Part shown: piece by piece, positions 3,763 through 25,616 of the stretch
Position numbering within the stretch: position 1 is the first letter of the stretch
How the letters are laid out: every line of letters begins with the position of its first letter
Virus record (IMG/VR): IMGVR_UViG_3300031951_000034
Span: 62,001-126,000 of that record
Origin: a virus
DNA length: 64,000 bases
Direction: 5' to 3' (one strand)
Position numbers and translations under genes: made by a program
Notes under the pieces: generated by a model
Databases searched by the model: none
Seen by the model: the letters and a program-made list of their open reading frames with translations, nothing else
What the model was told of the DNA's origin: nothing

Positions 3763-4158
3763 ATGTTAAATAAAAAAGAACTTAAAAAATACTCAAAAAG
3801 CAAAAAATTTTATTGTTGTATAACGAATGAGATTATTGCTCCTGACCGAGTAGAATATTTATTGAGCGAAGGGGTTTCAGAGGATATGCTAACTAGTCTT
3901 CGAGGGGCAGAGCTGACCTACAAACCAAGAAAAATTATTGTAGTGGATGATGAGGGTACTCATTTTTTCTGCGACAAGATAGATAATACTAGGGCATGGG
4001 CCCACGAAAGATTTGGCGATGCTCCCCCTGAGGACACAAATTATCTAGACGATATCGAAGAAAAGAAAAATAAAAAGATTGAGGAAACTTCTGTGTCCTC
4101 GGTAGAAGGGGTAACCATAGTAAAAGAAGAAGACGAAGAAGGAGAAGACGAGACATAA
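3763..4158 (+). CDS. hypothetical acidic-tailed protein, 131 aa
   Basis: The first 90 residues include a CCIT motif and a globular alpha/beta region. The last 40 residues are extremely acidic (EEDEEGEDET at the end). Acidic tails are common in phage DNA-mimic or chaperone-like proteins, but no function is proven. The next small gene overlaps its stop. Confidence 0.55.
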   Translation: MLNKKELKKYSKSKKFYCCITNEIIAPDRVEYLLSEGVSEDMLTSLRGAELTYKPRKIIVVDDEGTHFFCDKIDNTRAWAHERFGDAPPEDTNYLDDIEEKKNKKIEETSVSSVEGVTIVKEEDEEGEDET

Positions 4159-4316
4159 TGAAATCTAGAAATCCTAAAAAATACATGGAAAAAGATTTAC
4201 AAGACTCTAGTCTTTCCAAGTTTCAACCATCTAGATCTTTAATATTTGCTAAACTACCAACCATAGAAGAAAAGACAAAACAACAACGCAAAACAAAAAA
4301 TGACGACGACAACTAA
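4158..4316 (+). CDS. hypothetical protein, 52 aa
   Basis: A short frame with ATG overlapping the previous TAA (TAATG). It begins MKSRNPKKYMEKDL and ends with a polar stretch KNDDDN. It is supported by tight coupling to both neighbours rather than by homology. Confidence 0.5.
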   Translation: MKSRNPKKYMEKDLQDSSLSKFQPSRSLIFAKLPTIEEKTKQQRKTKNDDDN

Positions 4317-4443
4317 TCTTGTTCTCTCAATAACTTGCTTAATTCTTAGCAGTATATTGTTGAGTAAATTAAAAATAACCATAAGCGGTAAAAATGTTGA
4401 GATTGATTTAATGCCACATCTTCATAAAAGCTCTTCAATATGA
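4300..4443 (+). CDS. small single-span membrane protein, 47 aa
   Basis: One N-terminal hydrophobic segment (NLVLSITCLILSSILL) followed by a short polar tail. It overlaps the previous gene by 17 bases and the next by 4 (ATGA). The size and topology are those of small phage membrane proteins such as lysis accessories, but that role is only a guess. Confidence 0.5.
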   Translation: MTTTTNLVLSITCLILSSILLSKLKITISGKNVEIDLMPHLHKSSSI

Positions 4444-4574
4444 CAGAGCCTATATTTTTGATTGGAGCCTCTATTTTATCTTTATGTATTTGCTTGGTGA
4501 CCAAAAAAATAGAAAAAACTAAAGCCATACAAAAGATAAAAGAAGAAAACGAATTAATTCTACTCAACTACTGA
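4440..4574 (+). CDS. small single-span membrane protein, 44 aa
   Basis: N-terminal hydrophobic stretch of about 18 residues (IFLIGASILSLCICLV) followed by a charged helical region (KKIEKTKAIQKIKEENE). This is the shape of an inner-membrane spanin or membrane anchor, but it is short for a spanin. It is ATGA-coupled to the preceding membrane peptide. Confidence 0.5.
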   Translation: MTEPIFLIGASILSLCICLVTKKIEKTKAIQKIKEENELILLNY

Positions 4575-4576
4575 AG

Positions 4577-4834
4577 ATGAAAAAAGTACAGGTATCAAAA
4601 AATAATTCACAATTTATTGGAGTTTATTTTGTATCATATGTTGTCCTATGTGGGCTTATTATGGGCAAAATACTTACACCAATCGCCTTCTTTTTATGGC
4701 TTTTTATTGGATGGGGTATATCTAGGTTTCTTTCAGATATGTTCGTAGTGGGAAGTGATGTAGCTAAAACATCAGCATGTGCTGCTATATATCTTTCTGG
4801 ACTATCTGCAATTTCGTTTTTGAGATTCATATAA
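4577..4834 (+). CDS. multi-span membrane protein, 85 aa
   Basis: Three hydrophobic segments are visible: about residues 13-33, 34-52 and 62-80. The glycine and tryptophan pattern (FLWLFIGWGISRFL) is typical of small phage holin-like or membrane proteins. It sits in a run of four small membrane genes, which suggests a lysis or envelope function, but nothing proves this. Confidence 0.55.
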   Translation: MKKVQVSKNNSQFIGVYFVSYVVLCGLIMGKILTPIAFFLWLFIGWGISRFLSDMFVVGSDVAKTSACAAIYLSGLSAISFLRFI

Positions 4835-9431: not shown

Positions 9432-9468
9432 GCGGGATAGTATTTAAATATACTATCCCGCTTTTTTA
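9432..9468 (+). terminator. rho-independent terminator
   Basis: A 12-bp stem GCGGGATAGTAT / ATACTATCCCGC with a 6-base loop and a T6 run immediately after. It ends the AAA/DUF1257 unit just before the ATG at 9471. Confidence 0.92.
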
Positions 9469-9470
9469 TT

Positions 9471-10532
9471 ATGAGCGTAATAACAGCAGAACAAATAAAG
9501 GAATCTAACAACGAAATATCTTGGGCCCAAAAACTGTCTTCTGACATCTTTAAACATGGTGTCTTGATAAACGTTACAATTAGCAGATGGGAGGCTAAAT
9601 TAACTCAAACAGAAGACGATCAACAGGTTCTTGGAATAGATACAGATAATACAATTTATACTCCTGGTTTCAAGTATTTGATCCCAGTAAAAAAAATGTC
9701 TAAGTTTTCTGTATATAGAACAAAATTAAATAATTTACTTGATAGGTCTTGCTATAGGGTACCAGGACTAAAGGGGTCTAGGTTTGTACCAAAAGATTAT
9801 TACCCTACTTTAAAGAACTTTTTAAACTCCGAGAAACAGAGATTCAATAAGGAAGTAGAAATCTTTAGAGAAGAGTATCCAGGACTCAAGGAAAAACAAA
9901 TAAATAAATTCAATGAAAAATATCCAGAATACTCTGGATATATGGATCAGTTTTACCCATCAGAAAACGAAATAGCTAGAAAATTTAATTATTCTTGGAC
10001 TATTTATTCATGGGCACAAACAGAAATAACTGAAATAGCTATAGATGCTAAAAATGACTTATCAGAGAAAGCTGCGCAACTTGTATATCAGGCTGGTATG
10101 CAAATAAGAGAGCATATTGTAAAGGCAACTGAAGATGTTGTAGCTGTTATACAAAGCGGTAGAAAACATACTCGCGGTCAAAACGTAAGGATGCACTCTA
10201 TAACGAATTTTACAAAAAGGCTTAACGAGCTTAAACAGATAAATTTGTTTAACGATCCAGACGTAGAGAAAACCATCAATAATGCATGTGAAGCTGTTTC
10301 TCGTGTATCTAATTGGAATAAAAATGATTCGGATGCACTGGACCTTGAAGCAAGTCTAACTAGGATAGTTGGTACACTTAAAAAAGAGGTCGAAGAAATT
10401 CAAGAAAATCCAGAACGCATGACAGTAATAAGAAAAGCGATTGAGGAGTCAGAAACTGATGAAAACGAGCAAGAGGTTAATGTATCCTCAGTGAGAAGAA
10501 ATATTTACATTTCTAATGAAGACACAGAATAA
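9471..10532 (+). CDS. DUF3150-like protein, 353 aa
   Basis: A long soluble, largely helical protein. The opening HGVLINVTISRWEAK and the YPxxNE-type segment FYPSENEIARKF fit my recollection of DUF3150, a family of phage and plasmid proteins of unknown function. It overlaps the reverse transcriptase gene by 17 bases, so the two are probably translated together. Confidence 0.5.
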   Translation: MSVITAEQIKESNNEISWAQKLSSDIFKHGVLINVTISRWEAKLTQTEDDQQVLGIDTDNTIYTPGFKYLIPVKKMSKFSVYRTKLNNLLDRSCYRVPGLKGSRFVPKDYYPTLKNFLNSEKQRFNKEVEIFREEYPGLKEKQINKFNEKYPEYSGYMDQFYPSENEIARKFNYSWTIYSWAQTEITEIAIDAKNDLSEKAAQLVYQAGMQIREHIVKATEDVVAVIQSGRKHTRGQNVRMHSITNFTKRLNELKQINLFNDPDVEKTINNACEAVSRVSNWNKNDSDALDLEASLTRIVGTLKKEVEEIQENPERMTVIRKAIEESETDENEQEVNVSSVRRNIYISNEDTE

Positions 10533-12147
10533 AGCAATACAATACAAAGTATTTTTGATTCCTAAAAAAACAAAAAAATTTAATAAAAAAAATAATATAT
10601 GTATTGAAAAGAAATTTGCGGCAAACTTTTTAGATGTTAATTCAAATAACTCTAACAAGTTTATACACAAATTAGCAAAATTCACTAATTGCTTGTCACA
10701 AGATACTAGACGAGAAATATTAAGTGAGTTTAATATTTCTAATTATTCTAAGAAATTCTGTAAAACGCTAAAGGATGTTTTCTATGGATATGATAGTAAC
10801 TCTGCTGAACATATGAGATATTTTTCAGAGTTAATCACATTTCTAGAGGAGTGCATTATACCCAGAAAAGAAGACCACCGGGTAATTTTAGCTCCACAAG
10901 ACGAACTAAAGCAGGTTCAATCAGGAATTGCGGAACAATTAAATAGGTTTAAGCCACATATAAATGCATTTGGATTCGCAAAAAACAAGTCTGCTTTGGA
11001 TTCAGTGAATCTTCATTTATTCAAGAATGAAAAACCTGAATTATTAATCAATGTTGATGTGAAAAACTTTTTCGGAAGTTTTACGGAAAAACAAATAAAG
11101 AGTTCATTGCTTGCACATCAAATAATAGAAGAAGATGTATCTAATATAATAGATGTTTGCAGCATAAAATTAAATAAACGAAATATATCGAAGTTAATAA
11201 GCTTGATTTGCTGCTCTGTTGTTGACTTTAATCATTTAAGAGTATCTTTGATTGAAAAGTCAATTGGATCAAAAGAAATAAATTCATATTTGTATCCCAG
11301 AAGTTCTTATGTATGCACAGAAAGACAACACCAAGTGTTTGGAGCTGAAAGGCCAAGACTTGGCCTTTCAGCAGCTGAAAGGCCAAGTACGTTTCAGGAC
11401 TTTTGCGTTTTATTTCCGATTCATGGGCAATTAAATCAATATAATATAACAGAAGCCATAAAAAAGGACCGCGAGATATTCAAACTGTTTATGTCGGAGT
11501 TCATTGAAAAATGCGTATACAATGCATTTGAAATGAAATGGGTAAACAAAGATACAATACTTAAAATAATAAAGGATCTATTTAACATAGGACCATCAAT
11601 AAAATTTGATGATTATTTTTTGCCTCAAGGATCTCCAGCTAGTCCAGTTATAACAAATATAGCTTTTAAGTTATTAGACTATCGCTTAACTAGATTATCC
11701 GAAGAAAAGGGAGCTGTTTATTCTAGATATGCTGATGATCTTTCTTTTACTTGGCCAACCAGGCACGGTAAAAAATTCATAAATATTTTTATGTATAAAG
11801 TTGGAAAAATTTTATCCATGAATGGTTTTGAACTAAATAAAAAGAAAAGCAAAGTAATTGGTACTGGCGGTAGAATGGAGATACTTGGGTACGTAATGAA
11901 CAGCGGTAAGCCAACCATTGCCCCTGCGTATGTAGAGGCAGTAAGGACAGAAATATTAAAACTAAAGGACAAAATAAAAGATGGATTAATTCAAAACGAA
12001 CTAAGGTTTTTGTCAGAATGTTCAAAGATAAAAGGTAAAATAAATTTTATCGCATCTGCAAATCCTCACAAGGCAGACAAATTGTCTAGCTTGCTGTCAA
12101 TAATTAATCCTCCAATCTCCAATAGAAGGAAGATATCGGCGGATTAG
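10516..12147 (+). CDS. retron-type reverse transcriptase
   Basis: RNA-directed DNA polymerase, 543 aa. Visible motifs are ILAPQDELKQVQ, GFAKNKSA, VDVKNFF (about 179-185), LPQGSPASPVITN (about 369-381) and the catalytic YADDLSF (Y405, D407, D408). The QGSPASP and YADDLSF forms are those of retron and related RTs rather than DGR or group II intron enzymes. Two oddities: about 190 residues separate motifs VDVKNFF and QGSP, far more than the usual 60-80, and this insert contains a triple palindrome in the DNA. No ncRNA fits upstream because the start lies inside the previous gene. Confidence 0.88.
   Translation: MKTQNKAIQYKVFLIPKKTKKFNKKNNICIEKKFAANFLDVNSNNSNKFIHKLAKFTNCLSQDTRREILSEFNISNYSKKFCKTLKDVFYGYDSNSAEHMRYFSELITFLEECIIPRKEDHRVILAPQDELKQVQSGIAEQLNRFKPHINAFGFAKNKSALDSVNLHLFKNEKPELLINVDVKNFFGSFTEKQIKSSLLAHQIIEEDVSNIIDVCSIKLNKRNISKLISLICCSVVDFNHLRVSLIEKSIGSKEINSYLYPRSSYVCTERQHQVFGAERPRLGLSAAERPSTFQDFCVLFPIHGQLNQYNITEAIKKDREIFKLFMSEFIEKCVYNAFEMKWVNKDTILKIIKDLFNIGPSIKFDDYFLPQGSPASPVITNIAFKLLDYRLTRLSEEKGAVYSRYADDLSFTWPTRHGKKFINIFMYKVGKILSMNGFELNKKKSKVIGTGGRMEILGYVMNSGKPTIAPAYVEAVRTEILKLKDKIKDGLIQNELRFLSECSKIKGKINFIASANPHKADKLSSLLSIINPPISNRRKISAD
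11344..11387 (+). repeat. triple alternating palindrome inside RT gene
   Basis: The 14-mer GCTGAAAGGCCAAG occurs at 11344-11357, its exact reverse complement at 11359-11372, and the same 14-mer again at 11374-11387. Single A residues separate the copies. Either neighbouring pair can form a perfect 14-bp stem. It stays in frame through the RT coding region. Confidence 0.95.
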
Positions 12148-12162
12148 AAATAAGAAATATTA

Positions 12163-12705
12163 ATGTCTAAGAAAAGTAAGAAAAATGAAATACAAATAAA
12201 TCCTGGCGACAATGTGTTGCTGCAATTACCCAAAAACCAACCAGGAAGAAATGTTTGCTGCTCTGTTCGTGTGCTAAACAGAAAATGTGAATCACCCGAC
12301 AAATTCATTGGACAAGTAATTGAGATAGTTTCAATGGATTACTCAAACAAAGATTTTGTTCCTGGAAAAATATTAGAATTGCCTAAATCCAAAATAGTAT
12401 CGGCACATTCATCTATGTTAAACGGAGAAAAAACCTTTTTGACAATTGACGTCTCAAATGGTTGTATTTCCGCAATATACAGGACGGATGGCGAGATAGA
12501 ACCAATAAATGTTAGAGTGATTGACACCGACTATGAGTCTGATCAAGTATTCAGGGTTGATGCCGTGTCTGCACCATTAATAACTAAGGTAATAAATGAA
12601 CAAAATGATCTTCCCAATATTTTTTCATCAGAAGAATTAAATAATGAAGGCTACATAGGAGTAACTGGGGATCCTGGTCCGATAGGGCCGCCTGGAATAC
12701 CATAA
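12163..12705 (+). CDS. hypothetical protein with collagen-like tail
   Basis: 180 aa. The first 155 residues are beta-rich and not recognised. The C-terminal end carries Gly-X-Y triplets (GDPGPIGPPGIP), a short collagen-like segment of the kind found in phage fibres and decoration proteins. This suggests a trimeric virion protein, though it sits among replication genes. Confidence 0.55.
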   Translation: MSKKSKKNEIQINPGDNVLLQLPKNQPGRNVCCSVRVLNRKCESPDKFIGQVIEIVSMDYSNKDFVPGKILELPKSKIVSAHSSMLNGEKTFLTIDVSNGCISAIYRTDGEIEPINVRVIDTDYESDQVFRVDAVSAPLITKVINEQNDLPNIFSSEELNNEGYIGVTGDPGPIGPPGIP

Positions 12706-20905: not shown

Positions 20906-21203
20906 AATAAATTTTTGGCTTTTGATGGCAGATTGCCATCTTTTTAAAATGCTTATAGCAACTCGACGCTCGCAGATAGCAGGCGTCATGTAATTCTTCA
21001 GTAAACGCTTGCAGACCTGCAAATTACCGGGTACCGGCTGCACAAGTGCAGCCTTAACCCGGAATTTGCAGGCAGCGGCGCATTACTGAAGAATTGTACT
21101 CCGCCGCGAGGGGAGGAAACCGTCCTGAACCACCCGGTGGGCAGCCTGGTTGCACCAGGCAGCCCAACCGGGCCAGTTCAGGACTCATTCGCAAAAATTT
21201 ATT
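20906..21203 (+). ncRNA. structured RNA element 1 (about 298 nt)
   Basis: Closed by a perfect 12-bp stem (20906-20917 with 21192-21203). Just inside is GGCTTTT and a 7-bp hairpin (20924-20930 / 20934-20940, loop GAT). A nested arm follows: 20992-21004 pairs with 21083-21095 (13 bp), inside it 21016-21025 with 21063-21072 (10 bp), then 21027-21032 with 21057-21062, tipped by an 8-bp hairpin 21036-21043 / 21046-21053. A second arm pairs 21122-21130 with 21176-21184. GCGGCG at 21075-21080 matches CGCCGC at 21102-21107 across the 13-bp stem, which makes a pseudoknot. The plus strand is assumed from the neighbours. No known family recognised. Confidence 0.8.
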
Positions 21204-21211
21204 ACTATAAA

Positions 21212-21604
21212 AAGTTCTGGCTATTAGACAGAAGGTTTCTGTCATTTTATTATGTCACGTACATATAAGTGGTGTCCTGAGGCACCAGAGTAACTGGTCC
21301 GCCACGACACGAGCTGGATCGTGCCCACGGAATTCGTCAGGGGAGCTCACTCCACCCGGCAGGCCCATTAGGCCCTGCCGAGGTGGAGGAGCCTCCCCAG
21401 ACGACCTTCCTTTGGGCACGTCCTACTCGTGCGTGCGCGGCCTTCCAACCGTGCCAACACTGTAGGGCCCTGGAGCCTCGCGCCCCGGTTCTCTACGTGT
21501 CTGGGTCACGGCGTTCACCGGGGAGCTTCTGCTCCAGGGCCCTCACAGTATGGCACGGTGTACGGCCACCAGTTACAAACTCTTACGAGTTTTACGCAGA
21601 ACTT
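21212..21604 (+). ncRNA. structured RNA element 2 (about 393 nt)
   Basis: Closed by an 8-bp stem (21212-21219 with 21597-21604). It starts with the same motif as the others: GGCT, then a 7-bp hairpin 21227-21233 / 21237-21243 with loop GGT. Long helices inside include a 13-bp pair 21464-21476 with 21531-21543, an 8-bp pair 21449-21456 with 21551-21558, GTAACTGGT pairing with ACCAGTTAC near both ends, and a multi-step hairpin between about 21320 and 21420. Near the 3' end lies a small AAACTC/GAGTTT hairpin, then ACGCAG at the closing stem. Confidence 0.8.
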
Positions 21605-21618
21605 GAATAAAATATAAG

Positions 21619-21975
21619 AAAATTTCTGGCTTTTGTTGCACGGTTGTGCAACTTTCATCATTGCAGTTTAGTCAATGTAAGGCCTGCACTGTGGCGTCAT
21701 AGAAAATCACGATCTACGCCCCTCACAGCGGGTCTTCAGGCCTACCACCGGTAGGCCTGAAGGTCCCCGTCTGGAGAGGCTGCGATCAGGTCTTGGACGC
21801 CTGTAAGTACAGGCCGTAAGCGGATCTCTCGCCGGTTCCACACCGACGGGCCCTATCCGGCTATCCACGGGTTGCTAACTGAGGTGACCTACGGTCACCT
21901 CAGACCGCACGCCCGTGGAGCCGGAGCGCCCGCAGTGCGCAACCGGCAATTCGCTCCTTTCTACGCAGAAATTTT
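21619..21975 (+). ncRNA. structured RNA element 3 (about 357 nt)
   Basis: Closed by a 10-bp stem (21619-21628 with 21966-21975). The 5' motif is again GGCTTTT plus a 7-bp hairpin 21635-21641 / 21646-21652 (loop GGTT). Internal helices: 12 bp 21735-21746 with 21750-21761; 11 bp 21879-21889 with 21893-21903; CCACGGG 21865-21871 with 21912-21918 continuing into TCCGGCT/AGCCGGA; GCCGGTT near 21831 with AACCGGC near 21941. The closing strand ends four bases before the polymerase ATG at 21980, so folding could affect its translation. Confidence 0.8.
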
Positions 21976-21979
21976 TAAA

Positions 21980-22831
21980 ATGAATAATCCAACGAAATTA
22001 AATATACTGCCACTCCATACACATACGACATACAGTCTTATGGATGGGGTGTCTGACATAGATCAGTACATAAAATACTGCAAACAAAACAATATTGATG
22101 CATGTAGTTGCACTGACCATGGATATGTACTAGGTCTATACGATCTAATAACAAAAACTAAAGAATCTGGAATTAAGGGTATTCCAGGAATTGAGATTTA
22201 TCTAGCTCCACATTCAGAATATATATATAACCAAAACTTAAAGAAATTTGATTATTTTCATTTGACCCTGTGGGCAGCAAATAAAACTGGATATGATAAT
22301 TTATTATCAATTTCTAATTGCTCATGGGGGCACGGAAGAGTTGTAAAAAAATTTGGTCAACCAAAGCCAAGGGCAATATGGGAAGACCTTGAGTCATATA
22401 GAGATGGTATTATATGTGGAACTGGATGCATCGAGGGGCCAATAGTTAAACCATTCCTAAGAATGGAAAAAGATATGGCCACTTATAATGCGTGTAGACT
22501 GATGGACATATTTGGAGATAAATTGTTTGCAGAAGTTATGCCGCACTCTGTAGATAGAGATTGGACAACTAAAAACATTTACCAAGTTGACAACGAAAAT
22601 GGCATAACCTATACATTCTCTGGATCAGATATAATCGAAACTGAGATTGGTTCCATAACTGTAAAAGAGGCGTTTGAAAAAAAAGTGTCTCAAATCTATT
22701 CAGCAATTACAAACAGACCTCAAGATATGCCGCTTTCAGATAGGATAATAACTATCGAAGATGAATCTATTGACTCAGAAGATGATCAAGGCTGTCAAAA
22801 GATAATGCCAAGAAAAATAGTAATAGATTAA
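21980..22831 (+). CDS. DNA polymerase III alpha, N-terminal part (PHP domain)
   Basis: Start ATG 21980, immediately after structured RNA element 3; an upstream in-frame ATG at 21872 would read through that RNA. PHP motifs are visible: LPLHTHTTYS (about 10-19) and CTDHGY (about 46-51). Pol III-like sequence runs to about residue 200 (FAEVMPHSVDRDW). The last 80 residues (from about 205) are not normal alpha-subunit sequence and include GSDIIETEIGSITVKEAF, which resembles the first block of a Hint/intein fold. The frame then stops and the polymerase resumes in another frame after 25 bases. Confidence 0.8.
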   Translation: MNNPTKLNILPLHTHTTYSLMDGVSDIDQYIKYCKQNNIDACSCTDHGYVLGLYDLITKTKESGIKGIPGIEIYLAPHSEYIYNQNLKKFDYFHLTLWAANKTGYDNLLSISNCSWGHGRVVKKFGQPKPRAIWEDLESYRDGIICGTGCIEGPIVKPFLRMEKDMATYNACRLMDIFGDKLFAEVMPHSVDRDWTTKNIYQVDNENGITYTFSGSDIIETEIGSITVKEAFEKKVSQIYSAITNRPQDMPLSDRIITIEDESIDSEDDQGCQKIMPRKIVID

Positions 22832-22856: not shown

Positions 22857-25616
22857 ATGAGAGTAAAACAATCTACGTGGAGAAACACAAGTTCTCCGAT
22901 ATTTCTGAGAAAAGAATGCACAGAGACTGCACCGACTGGCGACTTCCAGAAATCAGGCAATGAATTAATTATGAAAATAGCAAGAGCTCACAATATTCCA
23001 ATATTGTTAACTCTTGACGCACACTTTGTGAACAAAGATCAAAAAATGGTGCAAGATCTTTTATTGCAAAATGGCAGAGATGAAGATAGTGGACTTAGGT
23101 TTAGCACTAAGTACTATCAAATGAGTTCAAACCAGGCATGGGAAAAGTGGCTATCACTTCATGGAACAAGCTTTTCAAGCCACTTCCAGGAAGGAGTAGA
23201 AAGCAACCACAATCTTGCTGGTTTGTGCGAACAAATATCCCTAGAGAAGAAATATCACTTACCAGAAGTTTCTTTCCCAAGAGAGGTGATAGAAATTTCT
23301 ACCTCCTATGAAGATAAATTAAAAAATTTAATTTATTGCTTGATAGATAGCAATGGAAGAATGAAAAATACGGAAGAATATAGAAATAGATTGGACAAAG
23401 AGATCCAAGTTATTTCTAATAATGGAAAGATAAATCTACTTCCGTATTTTCTATCTCTCTATGAAATCTGTGAACAGGCTAGACAACTAGGAATATGGAT
23501 TGGTGCTGGAAGAGGCAGCGCTGGTGGATGCCTTTTGGCTTACTTACTTAAAATTACTCACATCGACCCAGTTAAATATAACTTATCGTTTGAGAGATTC
23601 TTGTCTTCTGGTCGAATAAACAGAGGAAAGCTTCCCGACATAGACATAGACTTTAGTGAACCAGATAAAATAGCTGAGGCACTAAAATCCAAGTATGGAG
23701 ATAAATTTGTAAGAATTTGCACTACCGGTACAAATAAAGTAAAGAGCGCAATTAGAGACGTAAGCAGGGTGATACTAGACACCAAATTTAATGAGGCCAA
23801 TAAATTGATGGTGGACAAGGTTTGCAAGACCATAAACAATGTTCCACAAGGATTTAGCGATCTCTTAAAATGGCTGCATGGATGGGATGACGAAGAAGGT
23901 CACCACGCTGGAGAATTAGAAATAAATAAATCTCTATATAACTTCTTTGATGAGCATCCCTCCGTTCAATCCTTGGTGGAACAGATTATTGGTATTCCAA
24001 AATCACTTGGTCGTCACGCTAGTGCTTATTGCCTATCTGACGTACCGATTAATGAAATTGTACCAGTATGTAGAATTGGAGAGGAAGAATGCACGCAGTT
24101 TACAATGGAGGCTGTGGAATCGATGGGGTTGATTAAATTTGATCTACTTGGATTAAATACACTTAAAGACATCGGTAACTGCATACGACTGATTAAAGAA
24201 AGACACAACAGAGAAATCGATATATACAACGTTCCAGAAGAACCAATTGTGTTTAAAGAATTCTGCAAAGGTAAAACAGAAACGGTATTCCAATTTAATG
24301 GTCCCGTACCAACCAAGGTGTGCAGACAGATAAAGCCTAGCAGTATAATTGATTTAGCCGCAATTACGGCTGCTTGCAGACCAGGCACAATGTATGCGTT
24401 GATGTATGACGAACAAGAAGACGAAACAACAACACTTATAGATCTATGGGTAAAGAGAAGGCAGGGTAAAAAAGAAGTCTCTTATCTACACGAAGACCTA
24501 AAAGATATACTTTCTAATACACATGGCATTGTTTTGTTCCAAGAGCAAATATCTGCGATGTTTCAAAAATCTTGTCAGTACTCCCCAGAGCAAGCCGACG
24601 AGATTAGAGAGATAATAGGAAAGAAAAAACTCGATAAAATGAACGAGATTCTTCCAGACATTAGGAAGAGGCTCCAAGATAGAGGGTGGGATGCCACGCA
24701 AATATCCGCTTTTGTCAGTTTATGTAGGTCTAGTAGTAATTACGCGTTCAACTTAAGCCATAGCGTTGCTTATTCGTATATGGCATATGTTTGTATGTGG
24801 CTAAAGTCTCATTACCCGCTAGAGTGGTGGACGGCTATTCTTCAAAACTCAAATCACGAAGACCTAGCTCAAAACGCTAAATACTTTTCTGAAATAGTAA
24901 AGTTACCCGATGTAAACATCAGCCAGGTAGATTTCTACATCATAGATGATTCAGATAAAAAAATAGTGTATCCATTGACTATGGTGAAGGGGGTAAAAAA
25001 TGCCTCCCAAGAAGTTTTTGAGAAAGCCCCGTATTCTAGCCTCAAAGACTTTTTTGACAGAGTTGACAAAAAAGTAGTAAATAAGAGAGTTGTTAACGCA
25101 TTGATCTTTGCTGGTGCTTTAGATAAATTGGCCACTGTAAAATCGAAAGATAAGGTTGAGACAAGAAATAACTTAATCCATGAGTATAACATTCTCAGGG
25201 GAGAGAAAACTAGTAAGGTGCTATCTAAAGGCGAAATTGATATTTTAGAGAGCAAGAGCTTATGCATAGGGAGTCCCGACGTTGTTGATTATTTCATTAG
25301 CAAAGGAATGAACTCATGCATAGACATACCAGAGGTAATGCTAACACACGAAGGATATACAGTAAAAACAGCTGGAATAATCCTGGCAGTCAAAAAAATA
25401 AAGACTAAAAAAGGTCAGGACATGTGTTTCATTGACATTGGGAACAAAGAGTTTCAGGTTAGCATTACATGCTTTCCCGAGATGTATGAACAGGTAAAAG
25501 ACAATATCAATATCGACAAAGTAATATTGGTAACAGGTAAAATTAATGTATATAACGACAGAAAATCAATTATAGCCGATTCAGTAAGAGTATACAACAT
25601 AGACGAAATAAACTAA
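22857..25616 (+). CDS. DNA polymerase III alpha, catalytic part
   Basis: Main polymerase of the phage, 919 aa. Pol III alpha sequence begins at about residue 35 (SGNELIMKIARAHN, TLDAHFVN). The nucleotidyltransferase site includes GRGSAGG (about 218-224) and PDIDIDF (about 260-266). A helix-hairpin-helix-like region and a C-terminal OB fold (from about 840) follow. The first 30 residues are unlike any polymerase and may be out of frame or an artefact of the split. It should act with the PHP part encoded just upstream. Confidence 0.88.
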   Translation: MRVKQSTWRNTSSPIFLRKECTETAPTGDFQKSGNELIMKIARAHNIPILLTLDAHFVNKDQKMVQDLLLQNGRDEDSGLRFSTKYYQMSSNQAWEKWLSLHGTSFSSHFQEGVESNHNLAGLCEQISLEKKYHLPEVSFPREVIEISTSYEDKLKNLIYCLIDSNGRMKNTEEYRNRLDKEIQVISNNGKINLLPYFLSLYEICEQARQLGIWIGAGRGSAGGCLLAYLLKITHIDPVKYNLSFERFLSSGRINRGKLPDIDIDFSEPDKIAEALKSKYGDKFVRICTTGTNKVKSAIRDVSRVILDTKFNEANKLMVDKVCKTINNVPQGFSDLLKWLHGWDDEEGHHAGELEINKSLYNFFDEHPSVQSLVEQIIGIPKSLGRHASAYCLSDVPINEIVPVCRIGEEECTQFTMEAVESMGLIKFDLLGLNTLKDIGNCIRLIKERHNREIDIYNVPEEPIVFKEFCKGKTETVFQFNGPVPTKVCRQIKPSSIIDLAAITAACRPGTMYALMYDEQEDETTTLIDLWVKRRQGKKEVSYLHEDLKDILSNTHGIVLFQEQISAMFQKSCQYSPEQADEIREIIGKKKLDKMNEILPDIRKRLQDRGWDATQISAFVSLCRSSSNYAFNLSHSVAYSYMAYVCMWLKSHYPLEWWTAILQNSNHEDLAQNAKYFSEIVKLPDVNISQVDFYIIDDSDKKIVYPLTMVKGVKNASQEVFEKAPYSSLKDFFDRVDKKVVNKRVVNALIFAGALDKLATVKSKDKVETRNNLIHEYNILRGEKTSKVLSKGEIDILESKSLCIGSPDVVDYFISKGMNSCIDIPEVMLTHEGYTVKTAGIILAVKKIKTKKGQDMCFIDIGNKEFQVSITCFPEMYEQVKDNINIDKVILVTGKINVYNDRKSIIADSVRVYNIDEIN

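Follow-up and report, generated by a model that had tools for sequence, protein, structure and literature searches.

Retrons are bacterial anti-phage systems in which a single template RNA lies beside the reverse transcriptase (RT). In Ec86, the sequence of which was verified in E. coli genomes, the template starts at a C, followed by G and a2, as known from the 5' end of the msDNA. Published retron ncRNAs have complementary a1/a2 segments, a priming G right after a1, mostly in the context TAGC, and msr hairpins, one of which has a 3-base loop that is contacted by the RT; the start of the template adjoins a2 (PMC6868368; PMC11754653; PMC12405507). The NAXXH motif in region X of the RT deviates in two of 16 validated retrons (PMC6868368). 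Retron-Nex1 (Ne160) is described as having several msr-msd copies and no RT within a kilobase (PMC6868368). Here we report on three elements in a freshwater-type phage which very probably are the template RNAs of a phage-borne, type-XIII-like retron.

Three structured elements ahead of a split polymerase gene

The window, i.e. the whole stretch of 64,000 nucleotides analysed, corresponds to positions 62001-126000 of a 131,288-base virus record (IMGVR_UViG_3300031951_000034) with genes for helicases, a DnaB-like helicase, a primase-like protein, DNA polymerase III alpha and RecA. The polymerase III alpha is split into a PHP ORF (21980-22831) and a polymerase ORF (22857-25616); the same split was present in all relatives examined (L002, L003, L017, L019, L033). 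The elements occupy 20906-21976, almost from the stop codon of a small ORF (20899) to the start codon of the PHP ORF (DnaE/PHP; 21980). This placement and the retron-type RT 8.8 kb upstream had not been seen in the first-pass annotation, which was made from the letters of the DNA and had described three tandem structured RNAs of an unrecognised type.

The features which it had listed were all located at their coordinates. The third element is 359 nt long instead of 357, and its terminal stem has 10-11 bp instead of 10; the stems of 12 and 8 bp of the other two were as described. All three share a common frame: a terminal stem (P1), GGCT, a 7-bp hairpin (P2) with a loop of 3, 3 and 4 nt, respectively, and C-G-CA ahead of the closing strand. 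The closing motif ACGCAG, claimed for elements 2 and 3, was confirmed, as was the GC-richness of the array (55%) in an AT-rich genome (about 35%). When each unit was folded, the MFE z-scores against dinucleotide shuffles ranged from -12.0 to -15.4 and no shuffle was equally good.

A descriptor composed of P1, GGCT, P2 and YGCA retrieved from the whole 131-kb record the three elements and one chance match within a gene; the same descriptor had three matches in 2.8 Mb of control strand. A match at L010 9648 was rejected because it is within a gene, and a second GC-rich region at 48-49 kb because it is coding sequence. No Rfam family was reached by the elements at the gathering threshold, and a permissive search returned scores far below threshold, only microRNA-type noise, in agreement with the annotation. 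A blastn search of the elements against phages gave no real match.

Table 1. Coordinates in the window of the candidate template RNAs, their predicted parts, and the RT with its neighbors.
Feature	Position	Strand	Details
Element 1, retron-type ncRNA (candidate)	20906-21203	+	298 nt; sequence and fold, z -13.4
Element 1, 5' parts	a1 20906-20917; predicted priming G 20918; msr hairpin P2 20924-20940		P2 loop GAT
Element 1, 3' end	predicted cDNA start C21190; G21191; a2 21192-21203		closing motif TCGCAA
Element 2, retron-type ncRNA (candidate)	21212-21604	+	393 nt; sequence and fold, z -15.4; related elements L003_2, L019_2
Element 2, 5' parts	a1 21212-21219; predicted priming G 21220; P2 21227-21243		P2 loop GGT
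Element 2, 3' end	C21595; G21596; a2 21597-21604		closing motif ACGCAG
Element 3, retron-type ncRNA (candidate)	21618-21976	+	359 nt; sequence and fold, z -12.0
Element 3, 5' parts	a1 21618-21628; predicted priming G 21629; P2 21635-21652		P2 loop GGTT
Element 3, 3' end	C21964; G21965; a2 21966-21976		closing motif ACGCAG
DUF3150 protein adjoining RT	9471-10532	+	Pfam PF11348; no match in G003/G006
Retron-clade RT	10516-12147	+	543 aa; YADD residues 405-408 (11728-11739)
Small protein directly after RT	12163-12705	+	155-180 aa in three phages; distribution as RT

The frame covaries among related phages

The polymerase, helicase and PHP proteins served as queries to gather related phages. By the strict descriptor, elements were present at the same site in L003 (three; polymerase 93% identical), L019 (three; 75%) and L002 (two; 68%). 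No elements were found by this descriptor in L017/L018 (polymerase 63-68% identical), and none in L033 (PHP protein 47% identical), where the gene pair abuts without a gap. At the same site of the RT-less L017 (7044-7165) a gap of about 110 nt contains two small hairpins, CCTACC-CATT-GGTAGG and AGCCCC-GCGCAA-GGGGCT, possibly the remnant of an element.

Together with the window, 11 distinct elements were available (3 plus 8 from the three related phages), 226-490 nt long, with z-scores from -6 to -20 and a P1 of 7-13 bp. In all 11 a G directly follows a1, in the context TGGC, and P2 has 7 bp and a loop of 3-4 nt which starts with G; the C-G before a2 is invariant. All 14 pairs in P1 and P2 were formed (100%) in each of nine distinct scaffolds, without a G-U pair, and 11 of the 14 were changed on both sides. 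The covariation score of P1/P2 was 0.88, compared to 0.24 for shuffled and at most 0.17 for slid partners, and 40 double-change cells were observed versus 11.6 in shuffles. Covarying homologues thus exist in other phages, which upholds the earlier view of diverged copies of one architecture in which helices are kept and bases are not.

A retron-clade RT shares the distribution of the elements

The predicted fold of the RT (AlphaFold, pLDDT 78.7) has a low-confidence insertion around residues 257-309. In Foldseek its best 18 matches in the PDB were all retron RTs, and by sequence, too, the best solved structures were retron RTs (Ec67/Ec86). Against PADLOC the window RT matched RT_XIII best (161 bits), followed by RT_III-A (156 bits). 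The L024 RT also had its best match in RT_XIII (186 bits); for the L023 RT RT_XIII came second and III-A first. A strict NAXXH in region X is absent from the phage RTs, which have SVNLH, CANYH or CANFH, and likewise was not found in the nearest type XIII RTs from Firmicutes. The VTG triplet opening region Y is ILG or IVG in the phage RTs.

A domain search identified the RT also in the records of L002 and L019. In these and in the window it is always located shortly before an SbcD-like ORF and is flanked upstream by a DUF3150-type gene and downstream by a small one. The AlphaFold model of the small neighbor was uninformative (pLDDT 49); only in the window phage does this protein have a collagen-like C-terminal tail, GDPGPIGPPGIP. 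RT and elements were both present in the window record, G007, G008, G001 and G004. In the L017/L018 phage (G003/G006) the RT, both neighbors and the elements were all absent and the genes on either side abut; the joint absence represents essentially one phage lineage. The L003 contig (G002) contains the elements, and because it begins downstream of the RT position it is uninformative on the RT. No match to PF04434, i.e. a SWIM effector, was found in G000, G001 and G004, records which may be incomplete. Another retron-type RT, with NALPH, VTG and YADD, is encoded by a 204-kb viral contig (L047, 9974-10828), where its operon also includes genes for ThiF-like and other proteins.

Bacterial type XIII counterparts

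The nearest bacterial RTs were of type XIII, with more than 500 bits to RT_XIII and adjoining SWIM_XIII proteins (PADLOC); the phage RT is only 21-30% identical to them. The type XIII ncRNAs are about 190-230 nt long and located beside or near the bacterial RTs. Sequence and covariance searches located them downstream of the RT at about 15 loci; in many Lachnospiraceae they were on the opposite strand, about 5 kb from the RT. Their termini are TTTCTTG|GCC...TTAG|CAAGAAA or TTTTCTG|GTC...TTTG|CAGAAAA; the G after a1 is in the context TTGGC or CTGGT. Those of L058, TTTTCTG|G...G|CAGAAAA, are nearly identical to the ATTTCTG|G...G|CAGAAAT of the phage.

Multiple ncRNA copies per locus were found in L058 (n = 3), L068 (n = 2) and L086 (n = 3). 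L058 belongs to the cultured and completely sequenced strain Clostridium sp. MD294 (ASF356). Its three ncRNAs (3911-4656, minus strand) lie about 5 kb from the RT (9458-10924) on the opposite strand, with a near-constant frame and unrelated stems. In gapped global alignments the frame was 0.86-0.95 identical between these copies and the paired apical stems 0.59-0.74, which is close to chance. L086 (10987-11697) is a MAG labelled Candidatus Lokiarchaeota in which SWIM_XIII and RT_XIII are accompanied by three ncRNAs in tandem, again with exchanged stems; contamination by a Firmicute may explain the label. Two Archangium loci (L122, 8172-8397; L126, 8155-8379) have an msr that is about 98% identical, whereas the whole msd stem is swapped and fully paired. 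The phage and bacterial systems thus have in common arrays in which stems are exchanged within a constant frame.

A covariance model of the 5' part of the bacterial ncRNAs did not detect the phage elements. Therefore, what ties the phage to the bacterial systems is the RT, the termini and the arrangement, not overall sequence similarity. A generic retron descriptor missed the positive control Ec86; for this reason its negatives carry no weight and only its positives were used.

The arms are hypervariable

Between the window and L003 the flanking DNA is about 83% identical and each element can be aligned well in its basal frame, yet the inner arms of elements 2 and 3 for the most part had no blastn match at all. 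When the inner parts were globally aligned the score was barely above that of shuffled sequence, and all of them fold strongly. At short distance, the window and IMGVR_UViG_3300031963_000205 have 10 differences in 32.7 kb, seven of them inside element 3 (binomial P = 2e-12). Among these seven is one compensatory pair, G21740A/C21756T, which converts G-C to A-T; of the other five, a single change disrupts a pair and the rest are at positions left unpaired by the predicted fold. The changes were G>A, A>C, C>T and T>C, i.e. not adenine-specific. A change at 21421 turns a T-A pair into C-A. In the comparison with the near-identical contig L044 only one of 11 differences is in an element; clustering was thus seen in one of two such comparisons. 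The variant element 3 could have been brought in by recombination with another strain. Whatever its origin, variation over longer distances is far greater in the arms than elsewhere in the genome. A near-identical 99-kb contig (L021/L044) breaks inside element 3, at window position 21739, an effect that strong hairpins would be expected to have on assembly. Arrays of this kind may be recovered too rarely in assembled metagenomes.

Watson-Crick pairing suggests hairpins of DNA

G-U accounts for 3.0% of the predicted pairs in the 11 elements compared to 10-14% in shuffles. Within the helices 803 Watson-Crick pairs, 14 G-T and 25 A-C oppositions were counted. A plus-strand RNA under structural selection is expected to show far more G-U than A-C. 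In 11 of 11 elements the minus strand, which is the strand that a retron RT would make, folded better than the plus strand relative to shuffles (mean z -1.3). In the Clostridium and Archangium ncRNAs the plus strand folded slightly better. The near-lack of G-U and the minus-strand folding indirectly favor DNA hairpins as the presumptive selected form.

Discussion

What is the identity of the elements? The RT clade, the shared distribution, the anatomy, the type XIII termini, the arrays, the covariation of P1/P2 and the scarcity of G-U together lead to the retron reading. P1 corresponds to the a1/a2 inverted repeats, P2 to the short-loop msr stem-loop, and the RT is of the retron clade with YADD. 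The first-pass annotation was thus right on one diverged architecture with homologues and outside Rfam; the 'unrecognised type' is not supported, given the anatomy, the co-occurring RT and the near-identical type XIII termini. Retrons had not been considered. The elements are probably not a new RNA class, and as judged from the sequences there is a high probability that the system works like a retron. Strictly, it does not qualify as a textbook type XIII retron: it lacks NAXXH, VTG, an msd consisting of one long hairpin (the arms are multi-branched) and adjacency of ncRNA and RT, and no SWIM effector was found in the phage records.

The likeness to bacterial type XIII systems, exemplified by Clostridium sp. 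MD294/ASF356 (L058), Clostridium weizhouense (L070) and the Lokiarchaeota-labelled MAG L086, encompasses the RT clade, a1/a2 ending in TTTCTG or TTTCTTG, the G after a1 and the G before a2, the msr hairpin with a 3-nt loop, exchanged stems in a kept frame and arrays of two to three copies, some about 5 kb from the RT. In contrast, the window system is phage-borne, no SWIM effector was found, the RT has a central insertion, and the ncRNAs (226-490 nt versus about 190-230 nt) have branched arms instead of one long hairpin. Eco1 (Ec86) and Eco2 (Ec67) share with the phage a1/a2, the G right after a1, the 3-nt-loop msr hairpin and the RT fold, Ec86 also the C-G-a2 start; they differ by a single ncRNA beside the RT, a TAGC/CAGA context, NAXXH and VTG, one msd hairpin and a dedicated effector. 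Retron-Nex1 resembles the array in its several copies distant from an RT, yet it resides on a bacterial chromosome.

Could the elements act as RNA, as a stand-alone class akin to GOLLD, ROOL or OLE and unrelated to the RT? They are large, highly folded, phage-borne like some GOLLD and ROOL RNAs, without a match in Rfam and missed by the bacterial ncRNA model. We consider this improbable. Presence and absence are shared with the retron RT, the anatomy is that of a retron with termini close to those of type XIII ncRNAs, and the almost complete lack of G-U together with the better folding of the minus strand is the opposite of what selection on RNA predicts. To our knowledge, GOLLD and ROOL have no link to an RT. 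Pairing restricted to Watson-Crick would suit DNA palindromes, i.e. a replication origin, cruciforms or mobile palindromes, which function in double- or single-stranded form and need no reverse transcription; the array is within a replication gene cluster and the phage encodes SbcC/SbcD-like proteins (SMC-type match). Palindromes, however, leave the invariant GGCT, the short-loop P2, C-G-CA and the link to the RT unexplained. The 131-kb record has no further copies, and L017 and L033 do without elements, which consequently are not needed for replication. This makes palindromes a quite remote prospect. An RT plus targeted variation might bring to mind the template and variable repeats of a diversity-generating retroelement (DGR). 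Yet the elements share no sequence with any gene of the record, the changes are not specific for adenine and the RT matches retron and not DGR families; a DGR has next to no chance of being correct.

For the phage-borne retron we infer transcription, processing, priming, cDNA synthesis and function as follows. One RT, encoded 8.8 kb upstream, would serve three template RNAs in trans. Each RNA would be cut from the transcript of the replication operon and closed by a1/a2 (P1). The RT may bind the short-loop P2 hairpin and prime from the 2'-OH of the G following a1. Copying would start at the C of the C-G-a2 end and run back through the GC-rich arms, and the product would be a branched RNA-DNA with folded DNA hairpins. 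The arms would be the working part, free in sequence as long as they are paired; whole stems could then be exchanged while the frame stays. Our guess is that exchange is driven by an arms race with a host or rival-phage protein that binds hairpins or single-stranded DNA. Taken alone, the proposed function is tentative and rather doubtful. Bolder and less probable still is the idea that type XIII-like retrons diversify themselves, with the DNA hairpin produced by the RT returning to, and overwriting, the locus of its template. Copying of a hairpin would preserve the complementarity of the two arms, and the outcome would be template arrays with new stems.

In contrast to the single template beside its RT in bacterial retrons, this phage combines a retron-type RT with three distant probable templates in a replication operon and no recognisable effector. 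In the searchable literature we found no description of the pattern of constant frame and exchanged stems, which these phages share with cultured type XIII hosts, for example Clostridium sp. MD294. It raises the question what the stems recognise and how they are rewritten with both strands still complementary. Natural retrons with long arms and multiple templates are of interest for DNA production in cells. If self-diversification is true, it would represent the retron counterpart of a diversity-generating element, one which varies the structure of a nucleic acid instead of a protein, in phages as well as in bacteria.
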